From the NCBI GenBank assembly GCA_947594835.1, contig CANQEH010000022.1:1-42328 (forward strand): DNA of 42,328 nucleotides. Reading direction: 5' to 3'. Both the position numbers and the translations under genes were made by a program. Positions 25,145 through 34,386 of the stretch are shown in pieces. The DNA is from an uncultured Acetatifactor sp. Lineage in GTDB: Bacteria > Bacillota > Clostridia > Lachnospirales > Lachnospiraceae. The notes beneath the pieces are model-generated. The model saw only the letters and a list, made by a program, of their open reading frames with translations, ran no database searches and was not told the DNA's origin. Position 1 is the first letter of the stretch. The number at the start of each line of letters is the position of its first letter.

Positions 25145-26430
25145 ATTTTAATCCACACTCCCGCGTGGGGAGTGACAGGAGGATATAGCCTTCTACAACG
25201 CCAAAATAAATATTTCAATCCGCACTCCCGCGTGGGGAGTGACTGTGGCTAATACATAGGGTGCCACGCCATCATAGATTTCAATCCACACTCCCGCGTG
25301 GGGAGTGACACTCATAACCAGTAACAGTCACACCAACAGAAAATTTCAATCCACACTCCCGCGTGGGGAGTGACCTGTATGAGTCATGCCTGGACAGTTA
25401 TACAGTTATTTCAATCCACACTCCCGCGTGGGGAGTGACGCCGTCAATCGCCTCTCTAACTTTTCTGATGTCGAATTTCAATCCACACTCCCGCGTGGGG
25501 AGTGACTTGTTTGGCTGGCAACAGGTTCTGCCTAACAAGCGATTTCAATCCACACTCCCGCGTGGGGAGTGACAGACGGTTTCCATCCGCCTTGCCCGGC
25601 TATGTTATTTCAATCCACACTCCCGCGTGGGGAGTGACGCGTTTTGCCCTTTCTGTCCGTCCACTCGATGGGATTTCAATCCACACTCCCGCGTGGGGAG
25701 TGACCTTTCGGATCGAGATCCTGTGGCCGTCCAGCGACACCATTTCAATCCACACTCCCGCGTGGGGAGTGACTCATTAGAGGGTATATCTTTTGTGCAT
25801 TTTTACTATTTCAATCCACACTCCCGCGTGGGGAGTGACACGGCCTCATATGCCGGGCAGACATAGGGAGAGTATTTCAATCCACACTCCCGCGTGGGGA
25901 GTGACAGAGTTGCAAGAGGTAAATGCAAAATATGCAGAATTTCAATCCACACTCCCGCGTGGGGAGTGACCGGCGCTGGGGACGGTGGTAAACCCTATTA
26001 TTTTATTTCAATCCACACTCCCGCGTGGGGAGTGACTTGGAATTTTGATCCGTTTTACGGCTTTTCTTCAATTTCAATCCACACTCCCGCGTGGGGAGTG
26101 ACCATTAGAGGGTATATCTTTTGTGCATTTTTACTATTTCAATCCACACTCCCGCGTGGGGAGTGACGCGGGCCCGTTGTATTAACCAGGACGATCTCTG
26201 TATTTCAATCCACACTCCCGCGTGGGGAGTGACTTTTTCATCATCAGCACATCCAAACAGTTTTTGATTTCAATCCACACTCCCGCGTGGGGAGTGACAC
26301 AGCGGATATGGCAATTACGGCGCAAACACAATATTTCAATCCACACTCCCGCGTGGGGAGTGACAAAGTCTGGCTTAAGTGATTATGAGATTCTGGAGAT
26401 TTCAATCCACACTCCCGCGTGGGGAGTGAC
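25145..26430 (-). CRISPR. Type I-C CRISPR array, 20 repeats and 19 spacers
   Basis: Twenty 32-nt repeats start at 25145, 25212, 25278, 25343, 25408, 25475, 25542, 25607, 25673, 25742, 25808, 25874, 25939, 26005, 26071, 26136, 26202, 26267, 26333 and 26399. Spacers are 33-37 nt. In the transcribed (minus) direction the repeat is GTC, stem ACTCCC, loop CACGC, stem GGGAGT, then GTGGATTGAAAT: the classic type I-C form. The two repeats at 25145 and 25212 each carry one substitution, marking that side as the old, leader-distal end. The new end therefore faces cas2. Two spacers, at 25774-25807 and 26103-26135, are the same sequence. Confidence 0.99.
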
Positions 26431-26893: not shown

Positions 26894-27925
26894 CTATTTC
26901 CATAGAAACATTGGATATTGGTCTAGATCTCCACGCAGATATCTGGCCAGCAGCATAGCCTGCACAAACGGCACCATACCCCATTCCACTTTTTCTTCCA
27001 GAAATGGATGTGTGATCATTTCTCTTTTTTTGCTTTGCCATTCCTCGAGAACCCGCTTCCTCGCATCGTCATTGAGCAGCACTGCCCCATTCTCTTTTAC
27101 TGTAAAATCACGTTTTGATACAATCCGCCGGTTGATCAGCGTCAAGACAAACCGATCCGCCACAACAGGCCGCAGCTCCTCCATCATATCCAAGGCAAGC
27201 GACATCCTGCCCGGACGATCCGTATGCAGGAAACCGACATAGGGATCCAATCCAACAGTCTCCAGTGCAGCGCCTGCCATGCCTGTCAGCAGCGTATAGG
27301 CAAAAGACAGCAGCGCGTTTACACGATCCTGCGGCGGCCGCCGGTTCCTGCCCGGGAAGCAGAAGTCCGTTTTCTGCTGCAGGATCAGCTCATTCAAAAC
27401 GCTGAAATAAAGGCTTGCCGCCTCCCCTTCCAGCCCCCTGAGCAGAGCTGGATCAGAACACTTCTGGATCTCTGTCAGGGACTTCTGCAGAAAAGAGGAA
27501 ACTCTTTTTACCTTTTCCGTGTCTATCTGCATACCATGGTCTCTGATTGCCCGCTCCAACACCCATCGGGAATTGTACACTTTCCCCAAAATACAGTTTC
27601 GGGCAATGGCCATGCTCCGATCCGTGTTTTCGGAGTCCCTGTACTGCTGTTTTCTCAGCAGCACATTCCCCTGCACTTTCCCGCTCACCCTGGCCAAAAA
27701 TCTGCCCTGGGGCGTCAGGAAGCTGACGGCAATGTTTTTCTCCATACACGCCCCCATCAGCGCCGGGCTCATTCCCCTGTAACCAAACGAAACAATGCTC
27801 TCCAGATTGTGCAGCGGCAGACGCCCTATCTCCGTTTCTCCATCGTATACCACCACATTCTCGCCGTCGAGAGATAGATAACTTCCTGACGAAGTTACAT
27901 ACAGAGTATTCGCAAGCTTTTTCAT
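26894..27925 (-). CDS. cas1: CRISPR-associated endonuclease Cas1 (type I-C)
   Basis: Cas1 is the integrase of the adaptation complex. The start chosen is ATG 27925 (MKKLANTLYVTSSG), overlapping the cas4 stop in an ATGA; the longer frame reaching 28036 is inside cas4. The 343-residue product has the N-terminal beta domain (YLSLDGENVVVY) and the C-terminal helical domain. Metal-binding residues lie in LRGLEGEAASLYF (Glu), GFLHTDRPGRMSLALDMMEELRP (His and Asp/Glu). It is intact and of normal length. Confidence 0.97.
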   Translation of the reverse strand: MKKLANTLYVTSSGSYLSLDGENVVVYDGETEIGRLPLHNLESIVSFGYRGMSPALMGACMEKNIAVSFLTPQGRFLARVSGKVQGNVLLRKQQYRDSENTDRSMAIARNCILGKVYNSRWVLERAIRDHGMQIDTEKVKRVSSFLQKSLTEIQKCSDPALLRGLEGEAASLYFSVLNELILQQKTDFCFPGRNRRPPQDRVNALLSFAYTLLTGMAGAALETVGLDPYVGFLHTDRPGRMSLALDMMEELRPVVADRFVLTLINRRIVSKRDFTVKENGAVLLNDDARKRVLEEWQSKKREMITHPFLEEKVEWGMVPFVQAMLLARYLRGDLDQYPMFLWK

Positions 27926-28590
27926 TCCATCCCCCCTGAAAGCCTGTTTTCTATATAAGTCTTTACAGACGGCATTTTCCCAAGACGCGGCATACAGATA
28001 TCCTTTAGGGAACAAGTCGGACATCCCTTTGTCCACTTTCCCTGCGGTGTGCGGCCCTTTTCATAAAGGCGGTGCATATCCGCTGTCATTTCCTGCACTT
28101 TGCACCGAAGATCCTGTCCGACTGTCACAGGCTCCCTACGCCGTATTTCACCGTAATACAGCGCTCCCTCGAAGACAGGGACAGAAAACATTTCTTCCAG
28201 GCACATTGCCTGTGCTGCCAGCTGGATCACATCTGCCTCTGTCCCTTTTGGCTTCCCTTTCTTATACTCCACAGGAAAGGGCCGATATGTCCCTTTGTGT
28301 CCAAAGAGAGGAATGCCTTGTTCCGCTGTTTGAAACTCTACGACATCACATTCTCCGCATATTCCCAGCGTCCGGGAATGGATGGGCAGTCCTCTGGTGA
28401 TCAGCACATCGCCTCTTTTTTCATAGGAAAATTTATCATGGGCTCTTTTATGAAAGATTTCGCCCACAGCCGTATGTACATTTTCCTGCCATTGCCGCTC
28501 AATATGGATCAATGCCCATTGTCTTTTGCAGAAGGCGTAGTGCTGGATACCGGAAAGCAGCAGAAAGTCCTCTTCGTCATATTCCATCAT
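27922..28590 (-). CDS. cas4: CRISPR-associated exonuclease Cas4
   Basis: Cas4 trims prespacer ends and ensures PAM-correct integration with Cas1-Cas2. The 222-residue product has the four iron-sulfur cysteines Cys21, Cys190, Cys193 and Cys199, and a RecB-like nuclease core with GICGECDVVEF (Asp82) and PVEYKKGK (Glu108, Lys110). It overlaps cas7 upstream and cas1 downstream by 4 bp each, so the adaptation genes are translationally coupled to the effector genes. Confidence 0.96.
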   Translation of the reverse strand: MMEYDEEDFLLLSGIQHYAFCKRQWALIHIERQWQENVHTAVGEIFHKRAHDKFSYEKRGDVLITRGLPIHSRTLGICGECDVVEFQTAEQGIPLFGHKGTYRPFPVEYKKGKPKGTEADVIQLAAQAMCLEEMFSVPVFEGALYYGEIRRREPVTVGQDLRCKVQEMTADMHRLYEKGRTPQGKWTKGCPTCSLKDICMPRLGKMPSVKTYIENRLSGGME

Positions 28591-29480
28591 ATTTTCCTCG
28601 AAACCTGCACGGTACCGGGGATCTGTTCCTGACAGATTTCTACAAGGTAATCGGAATATTGCCTGGGGTATTCCACCCCTTCCTTTTTCTGGACTTTTAC
28701 CGCTTCAAACAGCTTGTATGCCGGGCAGTCCCCCAATTCTTTGCTGTGTTTGAACACGATCAGCTCCCTCACCGACATTTTCCCCCGGGCCGCAGAGTGG
28801 TCAATCTCAAACATATTGATGATAGCATCCCACAAAAGTTCCAAGTCCTCCTCTGAAAACCCTGTGGTCTTTCTGGCCAGGTTCGCCGAGATAAAGCCCT
28901 CTGCCCGATACAGCGCATAGGGCACGATATTTTTTCTGCCCATTTCCGTGTTCTTGTTTTCAGCATCTTTTTCCGTTGTAATCGCCACCCGCGTGATGGT
29001 CACTTCCTGGCTGACGATGGGGTCTATACTTCTTGCAAAGCCCAGCTGCACCGGCCCCCGCACCTGGCCGCAGTTCAGCGCCGCTTTTACGAAAGTCGTC
29101 ATGACTGCGCCGAAGGTTCTGATGTCATAGAAATTCTGGCACATGAAATCCCGTATCTGCCTGTCAATGTCCGGGTTCTCTTTCTTCTTTTCCTTTACGG
29201 TCTTTTCATCGACCCCTAAATACTGATAGGCTTCGCTGTCGCTGCGGTTTAAGGGCATATCCTCTTTGATATAGATCCGATAGCCCGGTTCATCCTCCTT
29301 GACCGTCTGGATGTAGTTGCGGATCTTTCTTTTCAGGCATACATCTGTCACCAGCCCATAACCGCTTTCCGGGTCTATCCTGGGAAGGTTGCCCGCATCC
29401 GGATCCCCATTGGGATTTCCGTTCTCCACATCAAACAAAATAACAAACTCATACCTGTTTTTAATTACTTCTGCTGCCAT
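28587..29480 (-). CDS. cas7: Type I-C Cascade backbone protein Cas7 (Csd2)
   Basis: Cas7 polymerises along the crRNA spacer to form the backbone of the interference complex. The 297-residue product starts MAAEVIKNRYEFVILFDVENGNPNGDPDAG, the family signature with its NPNGDPD loop, and contains KAALNCGQVRGPVQLGFARSIDPI and SANLARKTTGFSEEDLELLWDAIINMFE, typical of Csd2. AAGGAGG precedes the ATG. It lies four bases after cas8c. Confidence 0.97.
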   Translation of the reverse strand: MAAEVIKNRYEFVILFDVENGNPNGDPDAGNLPRIDPESGYGLVTDVCLKRKIRNYIQTVKEDEPGYRIYIKEDMPLNRSDSEAYQYLGVDEKTVKEKKKENPDIDRQIRDFMCQNFYDIRTFGAVMTTFVKAALNCGQVRGPVQLGFARSIDPIVSQEVTITRVAITTEKDAENKNTEMGRKNIVPYALYRAEGFISANLARKTTGFSEEDLELLWDAIINMFEIDHSAARGKMSVRELIVFKHSKELGDCPAYKLFEAVKVQKKEGVEYPRQYSDYLVEICQEQIPGTVQVSRKI

Positions 29481-29483
29481 CTT

Positions 29484-31229
29484 TCAATCCTCCTTCTCTT
29501 TCTTTTCATATCTTTTTTGTGTCTGATGATAATACCCGAGAATGAACATTCCCTGTTCTTCCAGGTTCAAACGCTTTGGATACGCCGATGTCTGACCATC
29601 TCCCACAGTTATTTTTGCCTGTAAATTTCCAAGCAGCTTTTCATCTTCCAAAGCCCGGCCTTTATTGCCAATCTTCCTCATGTGGCTGTTCTTCAGCCTG
29701 AAAAGCAGGGGAAATACCAGGGCAGGCGTTGTGCAGGCCGAATTAAAGTACCTGTCCTTGATGGTTGCGTTGATATCTGGATTGGCGGCTTCCTGGATTC
29801 CTTCCAACACCGCAAATTCCCTTCCAAGCACATACGCGACATTCTGGTTGTTTTCGTTTAGTTCCACAGTGACCTCCTCCTTATAGTTATGCATTAGAAA
29901 TGCCTTCACAATTGCCGCCCTGCCAGGTGTTACATTCCCTTGCTCCGCTTTCACTCTGCCCAACAGGGTGCTGTACAGCGAAGCAGGATACCTCTCCCCC
30001 GACAGGATCGCGCGATAAACAGCTGCGGCCATATGGGGTATGGGATTTTTTTCTCTGGATTTTTGATTCACCGTCTCCTGGAGCATAGACCAAATCCCCT
30101 TATATTCCTCCTGATCCCATTTCGGCCTTACAATCTTCATTCTGCTGTAATGCTCCGTCAGGTGCCGCAATATATTGCCAAAGCTGTCCTGATAAAAGAA
30201 TCGGACGGAAAGCCTGGCGGCGTTGGGGGAAAGCCCTAAGATATAAAATCTCTCCGCCGGGCTGAATCCTCCAAGCGCATCTGTATCTATCCCTTTCCCC
30301 TGCTCCAGGTTTTGGAAAACACCCCGCAAAACATTCTGCGCGTCCTTTCGCGCTTCCATCATGTCGGCAAAAATGTTCTGATATTGCGGTTCGCCGCTTT
30401 CTGCCCAATAGACGATCATGGTATCTCCCAAAATACTCCGATGCTCACTGTCCGCGATCAGATCATTTAACGCCGTGGTATAAGCGTACATGGCTCTGCC
30501 GCTCACCGGTGCATTAAAGCTCTGCTCCTTGCCGTAGGACTCAAACGCCGGAGCGTTGAAGGAGACCAGGGCCGCCCCGCTGGACTGCGCTCCAGGGATG
30601 CCTTTGATCAGCGTATGGATCCGCGCAATGCTTTCTCTCCGTCCCGTTACCAGGCAGATCCCGTTCCGCGTTTCTTCTGTGCCGCTTTTTCTATAGTTTT
30701 CCCAGGCTCCCTGTATCTCGTCGTCTTCCTGGACATACCGGCCTTTATATTGGAAAATCAGATTGCTGTTTGTCAGAATATCTTCTTTATCCCTCTGCAG
30801 ACACGGAAACTCCTCCGCCGTCTCCGGATCCCAGCGCTCGAAAAATGCCGTTACCGCCCGGGCCGCAGGACTGCCGCATTTTCCCAGTATCTCAATATGT
30901 TTTTCCTTCGCGGCCTGAAAACACTGGATCGCACGCTCCGGCTTTCCTTTCTGGTCGATTCCCAGCATATAGCTGGAATTGTCACAGAGGAAATTGGCCG
31001 ATATGCCGGAAGACCGTATGACCATCTCCGGCACTTTGATCTCTTGGGGCAGAAACATCTTTTTCTTCCCCCTCTGTTCCTCCCGTTTTATCGGTATGAC
31101 ATTGAGCAGATGCCCCTCCGCATCCAGTTCCAGCACATAAGATACTTTCGCCTTGCACCAGCCCGGCTGCTCCACTTTTCCCTGTTCCGCCAGCTTCTCA
31201 TAATGATCGGCCAACGCCTGTAAGATCAT
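29484..31229 (-). CDS. cas8c: Type I-C Cascade large subunit Cas8c (Csd1)
   Basis: Cas8c recognises the PAM and, through an internal translation start in several I-C systems, also supplies the small Cas11c subunit. The start chosen is ATG 31229 (MILQALADHYEKLAEQG), overlapping the cas5 stop (ATGA) with GAGGTG upstream, giving 581 residues. Csd1 features include the N-terminal YEKLAEQGKVEQPGWCKAKVSYVLELD, a central SFNAPAFESYGKEQSFNAPVSGRAMYAYTTALN segment and FYILGLSPNAARLSVRFFY. An internal start for Cas11c near the last 120-130 codons is expected from the family but was not resolved here. Confidence 0.96.
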   Translation of the reverse strand: MILQALADHYEKLAEQGKVEQPGWCKAKVSYVLELDAEGHLLNVIPIKREEQRGKKKMFLPQEIKVPEMVIRSSGISANFLCDNSSYMLGIDQKGKPERAIQCFQAAKEKHIEILGKCGSPAARAVTAFFERWDPETAEEFPCLQRDKEDILTNSNLIFQYKGRYVQEDDEIQGAWENYRKSGTEETRNGICLVTGRRESIARIHTLIKGIPGAQSSGAALVSFNAPAFESYGKEQSFNAPVSGRAMYAYTTALNDLIADSEHRSILGDTMIVYWAESGEPQYQNIFADMMEARKDAQNVLRGVFQNLEQGKGIDTDALGGFSPAERFYILGLSPNAARLSVRFFYQDSFGNILRHLTEHYSRMKIVRPKWDQEEYKGIWSMLQETVNQKSREKNPIPHMAAAVYRAILSGERYPASLYSTLLGRVKAEQGNVTPGRAAIVKAFLMHNYKEEVTVELNENNQNVAYVLGREFAVLEGIQEAANPDINATIKDRYFNSACTTPALVFPLLFRLKNSHMRKIGNKGRALEDEKLLGNLQAKITVGDGQTSAYPKRLNLEEQGMFILGYYHQTQKRYEKKEKED

Positions 31230-31885
31230 CTCATCACCTCGCAATCCTTTAGATCCAGTACACCGTCCTCCAGCACAGCCCTAAAAAATGTGGGCTGTAT
31301 GTTTTCCGGATCGGTGTAATCCATGTCGTACAGCATAAATCCCAGATCCTTGCGTTCTCCCGGATAAGCTGTTTCTACTTCGTTTTCTTCATAAAGCGCC
31401 ACATTGGCCGGAAATTCGCGGCATCCGAAATAGGGCTGGTGGTAACATTCGCCTCGCCGCAGCCTGCGCATGACAATGTCCTTGAACTTTCCCGGGTTGT
31501 CTGTGTCGTTGGCCTTGTCGGTCATCTCGAAATGCGCTTCAATAACGTAGTCCACATCGCGCAGTATCATGGACGCCCTCTGCACGATTTCCGCTTTGCT
31601 GCAGATGCTTAAATCTTCCCTTTTCCCTTGCATGACGCCCAGCGCACGGCTGCCTGAAACCTTGCTCTTTACCTCGTTCCTGCGCACGCTCGTAAACCGA
31701 ATCGGCTTTCTGAGATAAATCTTGTCCACAACCCATCTGCAGCCAGGATGCCAATAAACAGCTTCCAACAATCCCCGGGCAGCCGATGGCGTTATGATGT
31801 CATAGCTGCATCGTTCCACTTTCATCTCAGGTCTGCAGAATAGGGCATACTCCCCCCATGCTCTTATTTTTACTCCATATGCCAC
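31226..31885 (-). CDS. cas5c: Type I-C Cas5c (Cas5d), crRNA-processing endoribonuclease
   Basis: Type I-C has no Cas6; Cas5c cuts the repeat RNA at the base of its hairpin and stays on the 5' handle. The start chosen is GTG 31885 (read VAYGVKIRAWGEYALFCRPEMK), which has a perfect GGAGGTGAG site and matches the family N terminus. The frame open up to 31972 would add 29 unrelated residues and cover the promoter. The product is 219 residues with SYDIITPSAARGLLEAVYWHPG and the C-terminal YFGCREFPANVALY motif. It heads the cas5-cas8c-cas7-cas4-cas1-cas2 operon. Its 48-nt leader contains the site matched by the crRNA-like RNA at 32068. Confidence 0.95.
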   Translation of the reverse strand: MAYGVKIRAWGEYALFCRPEMKVERCSYDIITPSAARGLLEAVYWHPGCRWVVDKIYLRKPIRFTSVRRNEVKSKVSGSRALGVMQGKREDLSICSKAEIVQRASMILRDVDYVIEAHFEMTDKANDTDNPGKFKDIVMRRLRRGECYHQPYFGCREFPANVALYEENEVETAYPGERKDLGFMLYDMDYTDPENIQPTFFRAVLEDGVLDLKDCEVMR

Positions 31886-31900
31886 GCTCTCACCTCCATA

Positions 31901-31920
31901 TTCATTTATTGCTTTGTGTC
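31901..31920 (+). promoter_or_regulatory. PAM plus protospacer-like target of the crRNA-like RNA, in the cas operon leader
   Basis: TTC (31901-31903) is followed by ATTTATTGCTTTGTGTC (31904-31920), identical over all 17 bases to the start of the spacer-like segment at 32068-32084. Identity stops after base 17. The site lies between the predicted cas transcription start (about 31933) and the cas5 ribosome binding site. Confidence 0.85.
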
Positions 31921-31939
31921 CGTTTTTCCTATAAGTTAT

Positions 31940-31968
31940 ATAATACAATTCGTCTTCTGATATGTCAA
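31940..31968 (-). promoter_or_regulatory. Promoter of the cas5-cas8c-cas7-cas4-cas1-cas2 operon
   Basis: A perfect TTGACA (31963-31968) and TATTAT (31940-31945) are separated by 17 bp on the minus strand. This is a strong constitutive-type promoter for genes that are usually kept low. Transcription would start near 31933. Confidence 0.88.
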
Positions 31969-31983
31969 TCAAATTTTAAAAAA

Positions 31984-32014
31984 TTGAGTAAAAATGTTTC
32001 ATCTATGCTATAAT
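31984..32014 (+). promoter_or_regulatory. Promoter of the crRNA-like RNA
   Basis: TGC followed by a perfect TATAAT (32009-32014) is an extended -10. TTGAGT (31984-31989) lies 19 bp upstream as a -35. It is divergent from the cas promoter, 16 bp away. Confidence 0.7.
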
Positions 32015-32019
32015 GTAGT

Positions 32020-32115
32020 AGCTTCTTCTATTTGTGTCGATTACATTTTGTAGTCGTGGGTTGAAATATTTATTGCTTTGTGTCATAGGGCCGCTGTACG
32101 CCGATACAGCGGCCC
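32020..32115 (+). ncRNA. CreR-like cas-regulating guide RNA (diverged repeat, spacer-like segment, terminal hairpin)
   Basis: The RNA would start near 32020. At 32036-32067 it holds a 32-nt diverged repeat: GTC, stem GATTAC, loop ATTTT, stem GTAGTC, then GTGGGTTGAAAT. The array repeat has the same parts with the same lengths: GTC, ACTCCC, CACGC, GGGAGT, GTGGATTGAAAT. The stem sequence is changed throughout yet both sides still pair, and the Cas5c handle differs at one of 12 positions. The spacer-like segment begins at 32068; its first 17 nt match the cas operon leader next to a TTC PAM. A perfect 11-bp hairpin (GGGCCGCTGTA / TACAGCGGCCC, 32088-32115) replaces a second repeat. The pattern fits the CreR class of guides that turn the effector complex on its own promoter. 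Function is inferred; the elements are read directly. Confidence 0.85.
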
Positions 32116-32121
32116 TGTCCG

Positions 32122-34257
32122 TTACCAGAACACCCCTGCGCCCTGTCCGGCATCCGCTTTCAGTCCGACTTCCTCCGAGTAGCATCCAAGATCGCGCAAA
32201 ACTGCTATTTCCTCGTCTATTTCCTCTATCAAGCCTGCCCCTTTCAGATTTTCGTAGACACTGTCGTATACGTTTACACTGTACTGCCCTATCCTGCGCA
32301 TCAGATCCCTGCCCGGCATCCCATACCGCAGTGCTTCTTCCAGTTCTTTCCCTTCCTCCGTATCACAGATCAGTATCATTTTCCCGCTCTGCTCAATCAG
32401 ATGAAAATCCTTCGCCACTGCCCGGAAAGGTATGTTATCCGATTTCGCCTCGTTCAATCTGTCCAGAATGGCTTTTTTGTCTAACCCCTCCCCTCTTAAA
32501 TAAAACAATCGTTCAAAATACGCATGGATGGCATCTGGAGAAGCGATATCCTCAAATTCCCGCAAGATCTGTTCCGAGACGGCCACTGCCTGCCTCATGT
32601 CATTGCTGCCATTTCCTTCTCCTTCGGCAAATTGAAAGATATGGGTCTGACTGGCCGATGGATCCCGCCTGCCTTCCCGGTTACAGCGTCCTGCCGCCTG
32701 CAGCAGGGAATCCAGCCCTGCCAGTTCCCGGTATACTGTCTGAAAATCCAGATCCACACCCGCCTCTACCAGACTGGTGGCAATTACCACACAGTCCTGC
32801 CCCGTTTCCAGCCGCATCCTGATCTCCTGCAGTTTTTTTCGTCTGTGGATGGGATACAGGTAGGTGGACAGGTGATACAGACCGTCTTTTCCTTCCAGTG
32901 CCTCATATATTTCCTGCACACGTTTTCTGGTATTTAAAATGCAAAGCGCCTGCCGCTCCCGGCTTAACCGGCCGACCAATTCCCCCTCCTCCCATTCGCC
33001 CTCTTTGACGAACTGCGTCCTTCGGAACAATGCGTACTGCGCCCCCGCATCAGGACAGATTTCTCCCCTGTACAGCCTGCCAGGCAGTATCTGTCCCAAT
33101 GCCGGCTGGGTTGCCGTACACAAAACCGCCGTGCATCCGTAGTTTAAGACCAGCTCACTGACTGCCCTCATACAAGGCTTTAGATAATCTGCCGGAAGCA
33201 TCTGCGCTTCGTCAAAAATCAGTACGCTTCCCGCGATGTTGTGCAGTTTTCTGCAACGGGATGGCTTGTTTGAAAAAAGAGATTCAAAAAACTGGACATT
33301 GGTGGTGACCACCACAGGTGCATCCCAGTTTTCCGATGCCAGCTGTTTTAGAGCCAATTCTTCCCCGTCTTTGTACAACGCGTTACAGTGATCCTCCAAC
33401 ACCTGATCAGCGCCCAGGATATCGGCAAATATCTTCGCGTTCTGCTCAATGATACTGGTATAAGGAAGCACATAAATGATCCGGTCCAGCTTATGTACCT
33501 GTGTATGCTGCAGTCCAAACGCCAGAGAAGCAACCGTCTTTCCTCCGCCTGTGGGCACCGTCATATGGTAAATGCCCTGCTTCCCTCTCCCTTTTTCGAT
33601 ACAGGCTCTCAGTATTTCGGTCCGATGGGCATTGAGCGTCCCCGCTTCCCTGCAATCCAGCCAGGGACGGATTTTCTTTTCCAGGCGGTTCCACAGTTCA
33701 CCCATGGATACATAGGGATATTCCCGTCCCTGGCCTGACATAAAATGCTCCGTGTCCAAAAAATCAGCGTCAACAAGACAGGAATAGAGCATACGGATAA
33801 AAAACGTCACGCCAAAAAACTTCTCTTTCCCATCTAGTACTTCCAGTTTGGGAATGTCCGGAGTGACAGGGGCAATTTCTTCCCGGAAGGATCCATAGTC
33901 CGATATTTTCTTTTTTAACCGCCCCCACAGGCTAGGACAGCCGCTTTCGTCCGCTGGGCTTCCCCCGTCCGGCAGACCCGCGTGATGTCCCGCAATACAG
34001 TACGCCGCAGGGAGACATTTATGCGCCTGCATCTCGACTGCGCCTGCGGTGGAATGGTCTGTCTTGCACTCCTCCCCGCGGATCCTCCTCTGGAATTCTT
34101 CGGAATATTTACCGATGTCATGCATCATCCCACAGGCATAGCCCCAGTCTTTACAGTGGAATCTTTCCGCAAACCCTCCTGCCAGTTCCGCCACACGGTA
34201 TAAATGCTCATTCAGTGCCTGCTCTCTCCCATCGGCCGATCTATGCGCCAGATACAT
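32122..34257 (-). CDS. cas3: CRISPR-associated helicase-nuclease Cas3
   Basis: Cas3 is recruited by DNA-bound Cascade and unwinds and degrades the target. The start chosen is ATG 34257 (MYLAHRSADGREQ) with AGGAGGG seven bases upstream, giving 711 residues. The N-terminal HD nuclease has His46-Asp47 in MMHDIGKYSEEF, KTDHSTAG and AGHHAGLPDGG. The helicase has Walker A VPTGGGKT (about 234-241), the DEAH-box variant FDEAQML (349-354), CTATQPALG and the C-terminal QAAGRCNREGR. All catalytic motifs are intact. A TGCTATAGT extended -10 about 50 bp upstream gives it its own promoter, separate from the cas5 operon. Confidence 0.96.
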   Translation of the reverse strand: MYLAHRSADGREQALNEHLYRVAELAGGFAERFHCKDWGYACGMMHDIGKYSEEFQRRIRGEECKTDHSTAGAVEMQAHKCLPAAYCIAGHHAGLPDGGSPADESGCPSLWGRLKKKISDYGSFREEIAPVTPDIPKLEVLDGKEKFFGVTFFIRMLYSCLVDADFLDTEHFMSGQGREYPYVSMGELWNRLEKKIRPWLDCREAGTLNAHRTEILRACIEKGRGKQGIYHMTVPTGGGKTVASLAFGLQHTQVHKLDRIIYVLPYTSIIEQNAKIFADILGADQVLEDHCNALYKDGEELALKQLASENWDAPVVVTTNVQFFESLFSNKPSRCRKLHNIAGSVLIFDEAQMLPADYLKPCMRAVSELVLNYGCTAVLCTATQPALGQILPGRLYRGEICPDAGAQYALFRRTQFVKEGEWEEGELVGRLSRERQALCILNTRKRVQEIYEALEGKDGLYHLSTYLYPIHRRKKLQEIRMRLETGQDCVVIATSLVEAGVDLDFQTVYRELAGLDSLLQAAGRCNREGRRDPSASQTHIFQFAEGEGNGSNDMRQAVAVSEQILREFEDIASPDAIHAYFERLFYLRGEGLDKKAILDRLNEAKSDNIPFRAVAKDFHLIEQSGKMILICDTEEGKELEEALRYGMPGRDLMRRIGQYSVNVYDSVYENLKGAGLIEEIDEEIAVLRDLGCYSEEVGLKADAGQGAGVFW

Positions 34258-34386
34258 TTTTCTGCCCTCCTTAAGAAAGATCTGTTTTCTGCTGGTGATA
34301 TCCACTATAGCACATTACGAGTCCTATAAACCGTACTTAAAACAGTATCCCGTCCCCTGCCGCACCGGCCTGACAGAATCCTCTCC

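Follow-up and report, generated by a model that had tools for sequence, protein, structure and literature searches.

Background

The closest described systems are the CreR RNAs, which a 2026 review gives for types I-B, I-E and V-A (PMC13131331) and a 2025 review for "Type I and Type V-A" (PMC12737573). As these and a third source describe them, they are crRNA-like RNAs encoded by a mini-CRISPR among the cas genes; their complementarity to the cas promoter region is limited, and they use the cognate effector to repress the cas genes (PMC13131331, PMC12737573, PMC12948488). For CreTA, which is related, the number of ectopic repeats is given as "one or two" (PMC9458426), so that two repeats are no strict criterion for CreR; the 2025 review regards CreTA as clarified to date in type I-B alone and asks about similar mechanisms in other types (PMC12737573). 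Type I-C is described as among the commonest subtypes of CRISPR (PMC7684278).

Here we describe a minigene between cas3 and cas5 of a type I-C system from an uncultured Acetatifactor sp. It resembles CreR in being a crRNA-like element located among the cas genes, in its limited match to the cas promoter region and, as far as can be predicted, in using the cognate effector against the cas genes. It is unlike CreR in belonging to type I-C, with predicted trimming by Cas5c rather than Cas6, and in having one degenerate repeat plus a hairpin in place of the second repeat; in the I-C device as a whole, the target may also be without the base at position 12. With CreTA and CrePA it shares a degenerate repeat, a partial promoter match and (predicted here) repression by Cascade, but those modules repress a toxin, whereas the target in the window lies directly before cas5.

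Two further bodies of work are relevant. Shmakov et al. 2023 reportedly surveyed standalone repeats near cas operons, mostly of type I, with spacers partly matching cas promoters, and I-C examples may already be within that survey. The long tracrRNA of Cas9 (Workman 2021) is said to be a natural guide that leads the effector to its own promoter, where it binds without cutting; it differs from the minigene in being of type II and a tracrRNA-derived single guide, and the two RNAs are unrelated. Among the matches listed for CreR-like RNAs, I-C self-regulation and CRISPR-repressed toxins in the literature, there was no I-C CreR, and the primary surveys may hold one. The I-C guide may thus be a variant of CreR not previously described, unless it stands in those surveys.

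The minigene and its repeat

The window, meaning the whole stretch of 42,328 nt that was analysed, carries cas3-cas5c-cas8c-cas7-cas4-cas1c on the minus strand together with an array whose repeat forms a hairpin, as is found in type I-C systems (Table 1). Two array repeats at the 25143 end are decayed, and the array spacers at 25775-25807 and 26103-26135 are nearly identical in sequence. The cas3-cas5 gap is about 237 nt long.

Table 1. Positions of the I-C locus, the minigene and its target in the window
Feature	Position	Strand	Basis
CRISPR array, 32-nt repeats	25145..26430	-	repeat search, genome motif count
cas1c	26894..28036	-	open frame; family match from residue 40 onward
cas4	27922..28590	-	family search
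cas7	28587..29480	-	family search
cas8c	29484..31244	-	family search
cas5c	31226..31885	-	GTG start behind GGAGG, read from sequence
TTC PAM of target	31901..31903	+	read from sequence
Target (protospacer) in cas5 leader	31904..31920	+	sequence match
Predicted cas5 promoter TTGACA-17-TATTAT	31940..31968	-	consensus scan, 11/12
Predicted extended -10 (TGC TATAAT) of guide gene	32006..32014	+	read from sequence
Degenerate I-C repeat: GTC, stem arms 32039-32044/32050-32055, handle 32056-32067	32036..32067	+	sequence, folding, genome count
Predicted Cas5c cut site	after 32056	+
17-nt guide, exact copy of 31904-31920	32068..32084	+	sequence match
14-bp hairpin (32085-32098/32105-32118), likely RNA end	32085..32118	+	folding, 32081-32120 z = -5.69
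cas3	32122..34305	-	family search

A sequence-only reading of this DNA had proposed that the gap holds a diverged I-C repeat with its parts preserved, and this repeat is indeed there, with small shifts in coordinates. On the plus strand (32036-32067) it reads GTC GATTAC ATTTT GTAGTC GTGGGTTGAAAT, and the array repeat on the minus strand is GTC ACTCCC CACGC GGGAGT GTGGATTGAAAT. The claim of a replaced stem with pairing kept also holds, as the 6-bp stem of new sequence still pairs, with one G-U, and so does that of a tail one base off the array handle, since 11 of the 12 tail bases are kept, plus GTC. In the genome of 2.76 Mb there are 19 copies of the handle motif GTGGRTTGAAAY, 18 of them in the array and one in the minigene; as in CreR, a degenerate repeat of the cognate array lies outside the array and inside the cas locus. 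The RNA from 32024 to 32120 has a folding z of -3.86, and 0 of 200 shuffles were as stable, while the psi-repeat alone gives z = -2.41, with 5 of 200 shuffles as stable. Avoidance of recombination with the array, which the sequence-only reading named as a reason for the replaced stem, may have played a part.

The flanking signals agreed with the sequence-only reading in part. The TGC-TATAAT expected before the minigene is present, but a -35/-10 consensus scan gave no plus-strand promoter there, and there is no good -35. The strong 3' hairpin exists as well, although it has 14 bp rather than the 11 bp first given; it is without a T-run, and the terminator scan found 0 terminators. Two repeats flanking the guide, a feature of CreR, were not seen in the window, where a single repeat is followed by the hairpin. 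An Rfam search of 31850-32200 and a search with the gap as query against plasmid DNA gave no match, and none was found in the viral contigs searched.

An exact guide match in the cas5 leader

The segment after the repeat had been called spacer-like only, and its match was overlooked: it is a perfect 17-nt copy of a site behind TTC in the cas5 leader. When up to 3 mismatches were allowed, the guide had 2 matches against 0.09 expected in shuffles. In a genome search with TTC plus the guide, positions 6 and 12 being free, the cas5 site is the only exact match, and at 3 mismatches there are 3 unrelated sites plus the guide's own copy. The target lies in the leader, shortly after the predicted cas5 promoter and before the cas5 start; from the PAM to the presumed GTG start of cas5 there are about 16 nt, and no gene lies between. 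Thus, the guide has limited complementarity to the cas promoter region beside a cognate PAM, as CreR guides do. In Xanthomonas oryzae the I-C system was tested with TTC as its PAM (PMC8406640), and both TTC and TTT serve the I-C system of Neisseria lactamica (PMC10865793).

Because the guide matches the start of its own cas operon exactly, the CRISPR complex is predicted to down-regulate itself. The exact 17-nt match and the TTC PAM support the earlier proposal of a CreR-type regulator in a I-C system, and we consider it very probable from the sequence that the minigene (32036-32118) is a single-repeat CreR-type guide, with which the I-C Cascade likely represses its own cas operon.

Guides and targets in related I-C loci

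Related loci were collected by a cas5 protein scan, which gave 199 relatives; the best 80 loci of the 199 were kept and measured together with the window (81 in total). A first whole-locus scan was loose and discriminated poorly (31 of 81 loci, against 6 to 26 of 81 with decoy handles), and a gap-only, PAM-blind test came after it. This test used the 38 loci, window included, in which the cas3-cas5 gap is at least 100 nt, short enough to scan and without an array. Left out were 6 loci whose cas3 end was out of reach, 35 in which the gap is below 100 nt, L021, which has a small CRISPR array within the gap, and L034, whose gap exceeds 1500 nt and holds a 492-aa transposase-like ORF.

Handle-like sites, defined by at least 10 of 12 bases, number 32 in the 38 gaps, and 31 of them are on the strand opposite the cas genes; dinucleotide shuffles gave a mean of 6.9 and a maximum of 19, as AT-rich gaps yield some by chance. 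The 17 nt after each handle were then compared with the whole gap, with positions 6 and 12 unscored (15 positions scored). A score of at least 13/15 was reached by 25 of 32 sites, against 24 of 1184 when guides were paired with other loci and 7 of 640 when they were shuffled; at 14/15 or better the numbers are 23 of 32, 9 of 1184 and 0 of 640. Five more loci (L022, L039, L059, L065 and L088) match if the target is without one base at position 12, and these fits reach 14 to 16 of 16, with TTC, against 0 of 172 in the control; this deletion model was devised after seeing the misses and fixed before the order-wide fresh sample described below.

The sequence-only reading had suggested that related I-C loci be compared in their cas3-cas5 gap, and the comparison bears it out: the device of handle, guide and target is on the same strand in 30 of the 38 gap loci, with guides that differ and each match their own target. 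Accordingly, 30 of the 31 opposite-strand sites have a target, one per locus, and the remaining one is a chance site, the second in L038. The other 8 gap loci have no such handle-like site. Cultured species with the device include Fusicatenibacter saccharivorans, Eubacterium barkeri and Roseburia porci.

Two fresh samples were also scanned. In the class-wide one (29 loci, 7 with a gap of at least 100 nt), 4 of 7 match (L099, L100, L101 and L106), L112 is partial (12/15, TTC), and no match was found in L114 and L120. In the order-wide one (12 loci, 6 with a gap), 5 of 6 match, all with TTC (L140, L142, L143, L144 and L146), and L141 has a handle for which no target was found. There are repeats among the samples: the guide and target of L100 equal those of L054/L056, and L139 equals L023. 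L024, L115 and L143 contain same-strand handles that lack a target and are put down to chance.

In loci without a cas3-cas5 gap the device is rare. Of 64 loci scanned upstream of cas3, 2 (L056 and L090) show it, as a guide-like element with a TTC target nearby; L056 has a guide-like element in its cas3-cas5 gap too, and L090 is without a gap. In plasmid-borne I-C systems of other groups (Nitratidesulfovibrio, Zymomonas, Leptolinea, Geminicoccaceae and Brevibacillus), 0 of 5 have the device in the stretches scanned.

Pairing signature and structure

For the following counts L053 and L056 were removed as duplicates, which leaves 23 non-redundant ungapped matches. Of these, 21 have TTC as the PAM and the other 2 have TTT. 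Position 6 is mismatched in 10, position 7 in 3, position 12 in 17 and position 13 in 1, and every other position up to 15 pairs throughout. Thus 27 of the 31 mismatches within positions 1-15 fall on positions 6 and 12, which were unscored in the selection; the score cut-off itself explains in part why the scored positions show so few. Beyond position 15 there are 3 mismatches at 16 and 8 at 17, and at positions 18-24 each position is mismatched in 14 to 20 of the 23, about random, so the match ends near position 17. From these alignments position 12 looks free and position 6 only partly so (mismatched in 10 of 23, against about 17 if random). In class 1 effectors, every sixth guide base is described as flipped out (PMC11127173).

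The repeat structure that had been taken as preserved is kept across loci as a short hairpin, but not in the fixed form of a 6-bp stem with a 5-nt loop: a stem of at least 3 bp flush with the handle is present in 23 of 23, against 36% of shuffles. The stretch with the hairpin after the guide has energies of -14.9 to -40.9 kcal/mol in the 23, values without a shuffle control. The guides are diverse, with a median pairwise identity of 7/17, and similar guides show two-sided changes in guide and target, for example L064/L068 at position 10. Guide-target pairing is therefore conserved among relatives, as it is for CreR.

A sigma70-like promoter on the cas strand lies beside the target in 18 of 23 loci, against 8.5% of shuffles. 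For the guide gene itself, enrichment of a -10 is only slight (16 of 23 loci, where shuffles give 46%). In a consensus scan whose placements are uncontrolled, 14 of 27 targets overlap the region from -30 to +20 around the -10 start, 4 of 27, window included, are slightly further downstream of the -10, 7 of 27 precede, by a short distance, the -35 of the best predicted promoter, and in L018 and L031 (2 of 27) the best-scoring promoter is elsewhere than the target.

Genes between target and cas5, and other readings

Nine related loci (L024, L025, L029, L031, L039, L140, L141, L142 and L144) have a DUF3990-like gene of 153-183 codons between cas3 and cas5, with a conserved partner gene of 146-153 codons beside it. 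DUF3990 was confirmed by Pfam for two proteins and matched by eye for the others, and two partners gave no family. The target is before the pair in all nine loci except L141, where none was found. L143 has the partner gene alone, and in L022 and L027 short stretches just upstream of cas5 look by eye like the end of the partner, as if the pair had been lost. In L018, the closest relative, a 29-codon hydrophobic ORF lies between target and cas5, about 251 nt upstream of cas5; its match to Hol_Tox is sub-threshold (E = 0.003, 17.8 bits against a cut-off of 23.3). The DUF3990 pairs and the L018 ORF may be CRISPR-repressed toxin modules, and the relatives that carry them may be of the CreTA/CrePA kind.

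These genes favour a reading in which the guide of the window acts as the CreA of a CreTA or CrePA module, repressing a toxin before cas5 so that loss of Cascade is harmful. However, in CreTA and CrePA the target promoter drives a toxin, and in the window no gene is found between target and cas5; for the window this reading is rejected as very unlikely.

The guide could also be an antisense small RNA that pairs with the leader of the cas5 mRNA shortly before the ribosome-binding site and stops translation with no part for Cascade, and in the window it is indeed complementary to the leader, about 6 nt from GGAGG. Against this, the guide has the sense of the cas mRNA in 7 of the 23 loci, and such flips of the target strand between loci argue against an antisense RNA; the 7 targets noted above lie upstream of the best predicted promoter, and neither the TTC PAM nor the crRNA handle nor the freedom at positions 6 and 12 would have a role. 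We reject it as highly improbable. Least probable of all, and also rejected, is a functionless remnant, a stray decayed repeat next to a copy of the cas5 leader that is due to chance or duplication: a single locus could have come about in this way, and repeats at the array end are decaying too, but widely differing guides match their own targets with two-sided changes, and strand, PAM, handle and the match end near position 17 are all kept.

Proposed mechanism

For the CreR-type guide, we propose the following sequence of events. The minigene RNA would begin near 32021, and Cas5c would cut it at the foot of the small hairpin, leaving an 11-nt handle; in I-C, the 5' handle is described as clamped by Cas5c and Cas7 (PMC7684278). 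Cas5, Cas7 and Cas8 would assemble on the trimmed RNA and bind the target in the cas5 leader, where the bound Cascade would block RNA polymerase, so that cas5-cas8-cas7-cas4-cas1 would be repressed. In the window the 17-nt site is downstream of the -10, and a full 35-nt footprint would reach the transcription start. I-C Cascade without Cas3 is reported to repress a promoter, one repeat and one spacer being enough (PMC10865793). In Xanthomonas, I-C self-killing is reported to need at least 27 matching bp (PMC8406640), so 17 should allow binding without cutting; since 17 matching positions are likely too few for Cas3, the complex would only block RNA polymerase. The output would be self-adjusting: when Cascade is occupied by crRNAs or disabled by anti-CRISPRs, the operon would be de-repressed.

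Implications

For the I-C Cascades of Lachnospiraceae and other Clostridia in general, the chances seem to us evenly balanced that they have a built-in single-repeat guide for whatever promoter precedes cas5, which would be an autorepressor in streamlined loci and a fuse with a DUF3990 pair or a tiny membrane peptide elsewhere, and which would pair in three blocks of five bases, the base between blocks being free or perhaps even lacking in the target. If this is true, one conserved address would act either as a thermostat for Cascade or as a fuse, set off by loss or inhibition of Cascade; if the genes before cas5 are toxin modules, CreR and CreTA/CrePA would be joined at that one address.

A guided I-C self-repressor that can be recognised from sequence alone, and in cultured species, would make the question about other CRISPR types directly testable. 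Natural 17-nt guides, which likely bind without cutting, would be a ready design rule for repression by intact I-C systems, and a guided self-repressor would predict how I-C systems respond to anti-CRISPRs.
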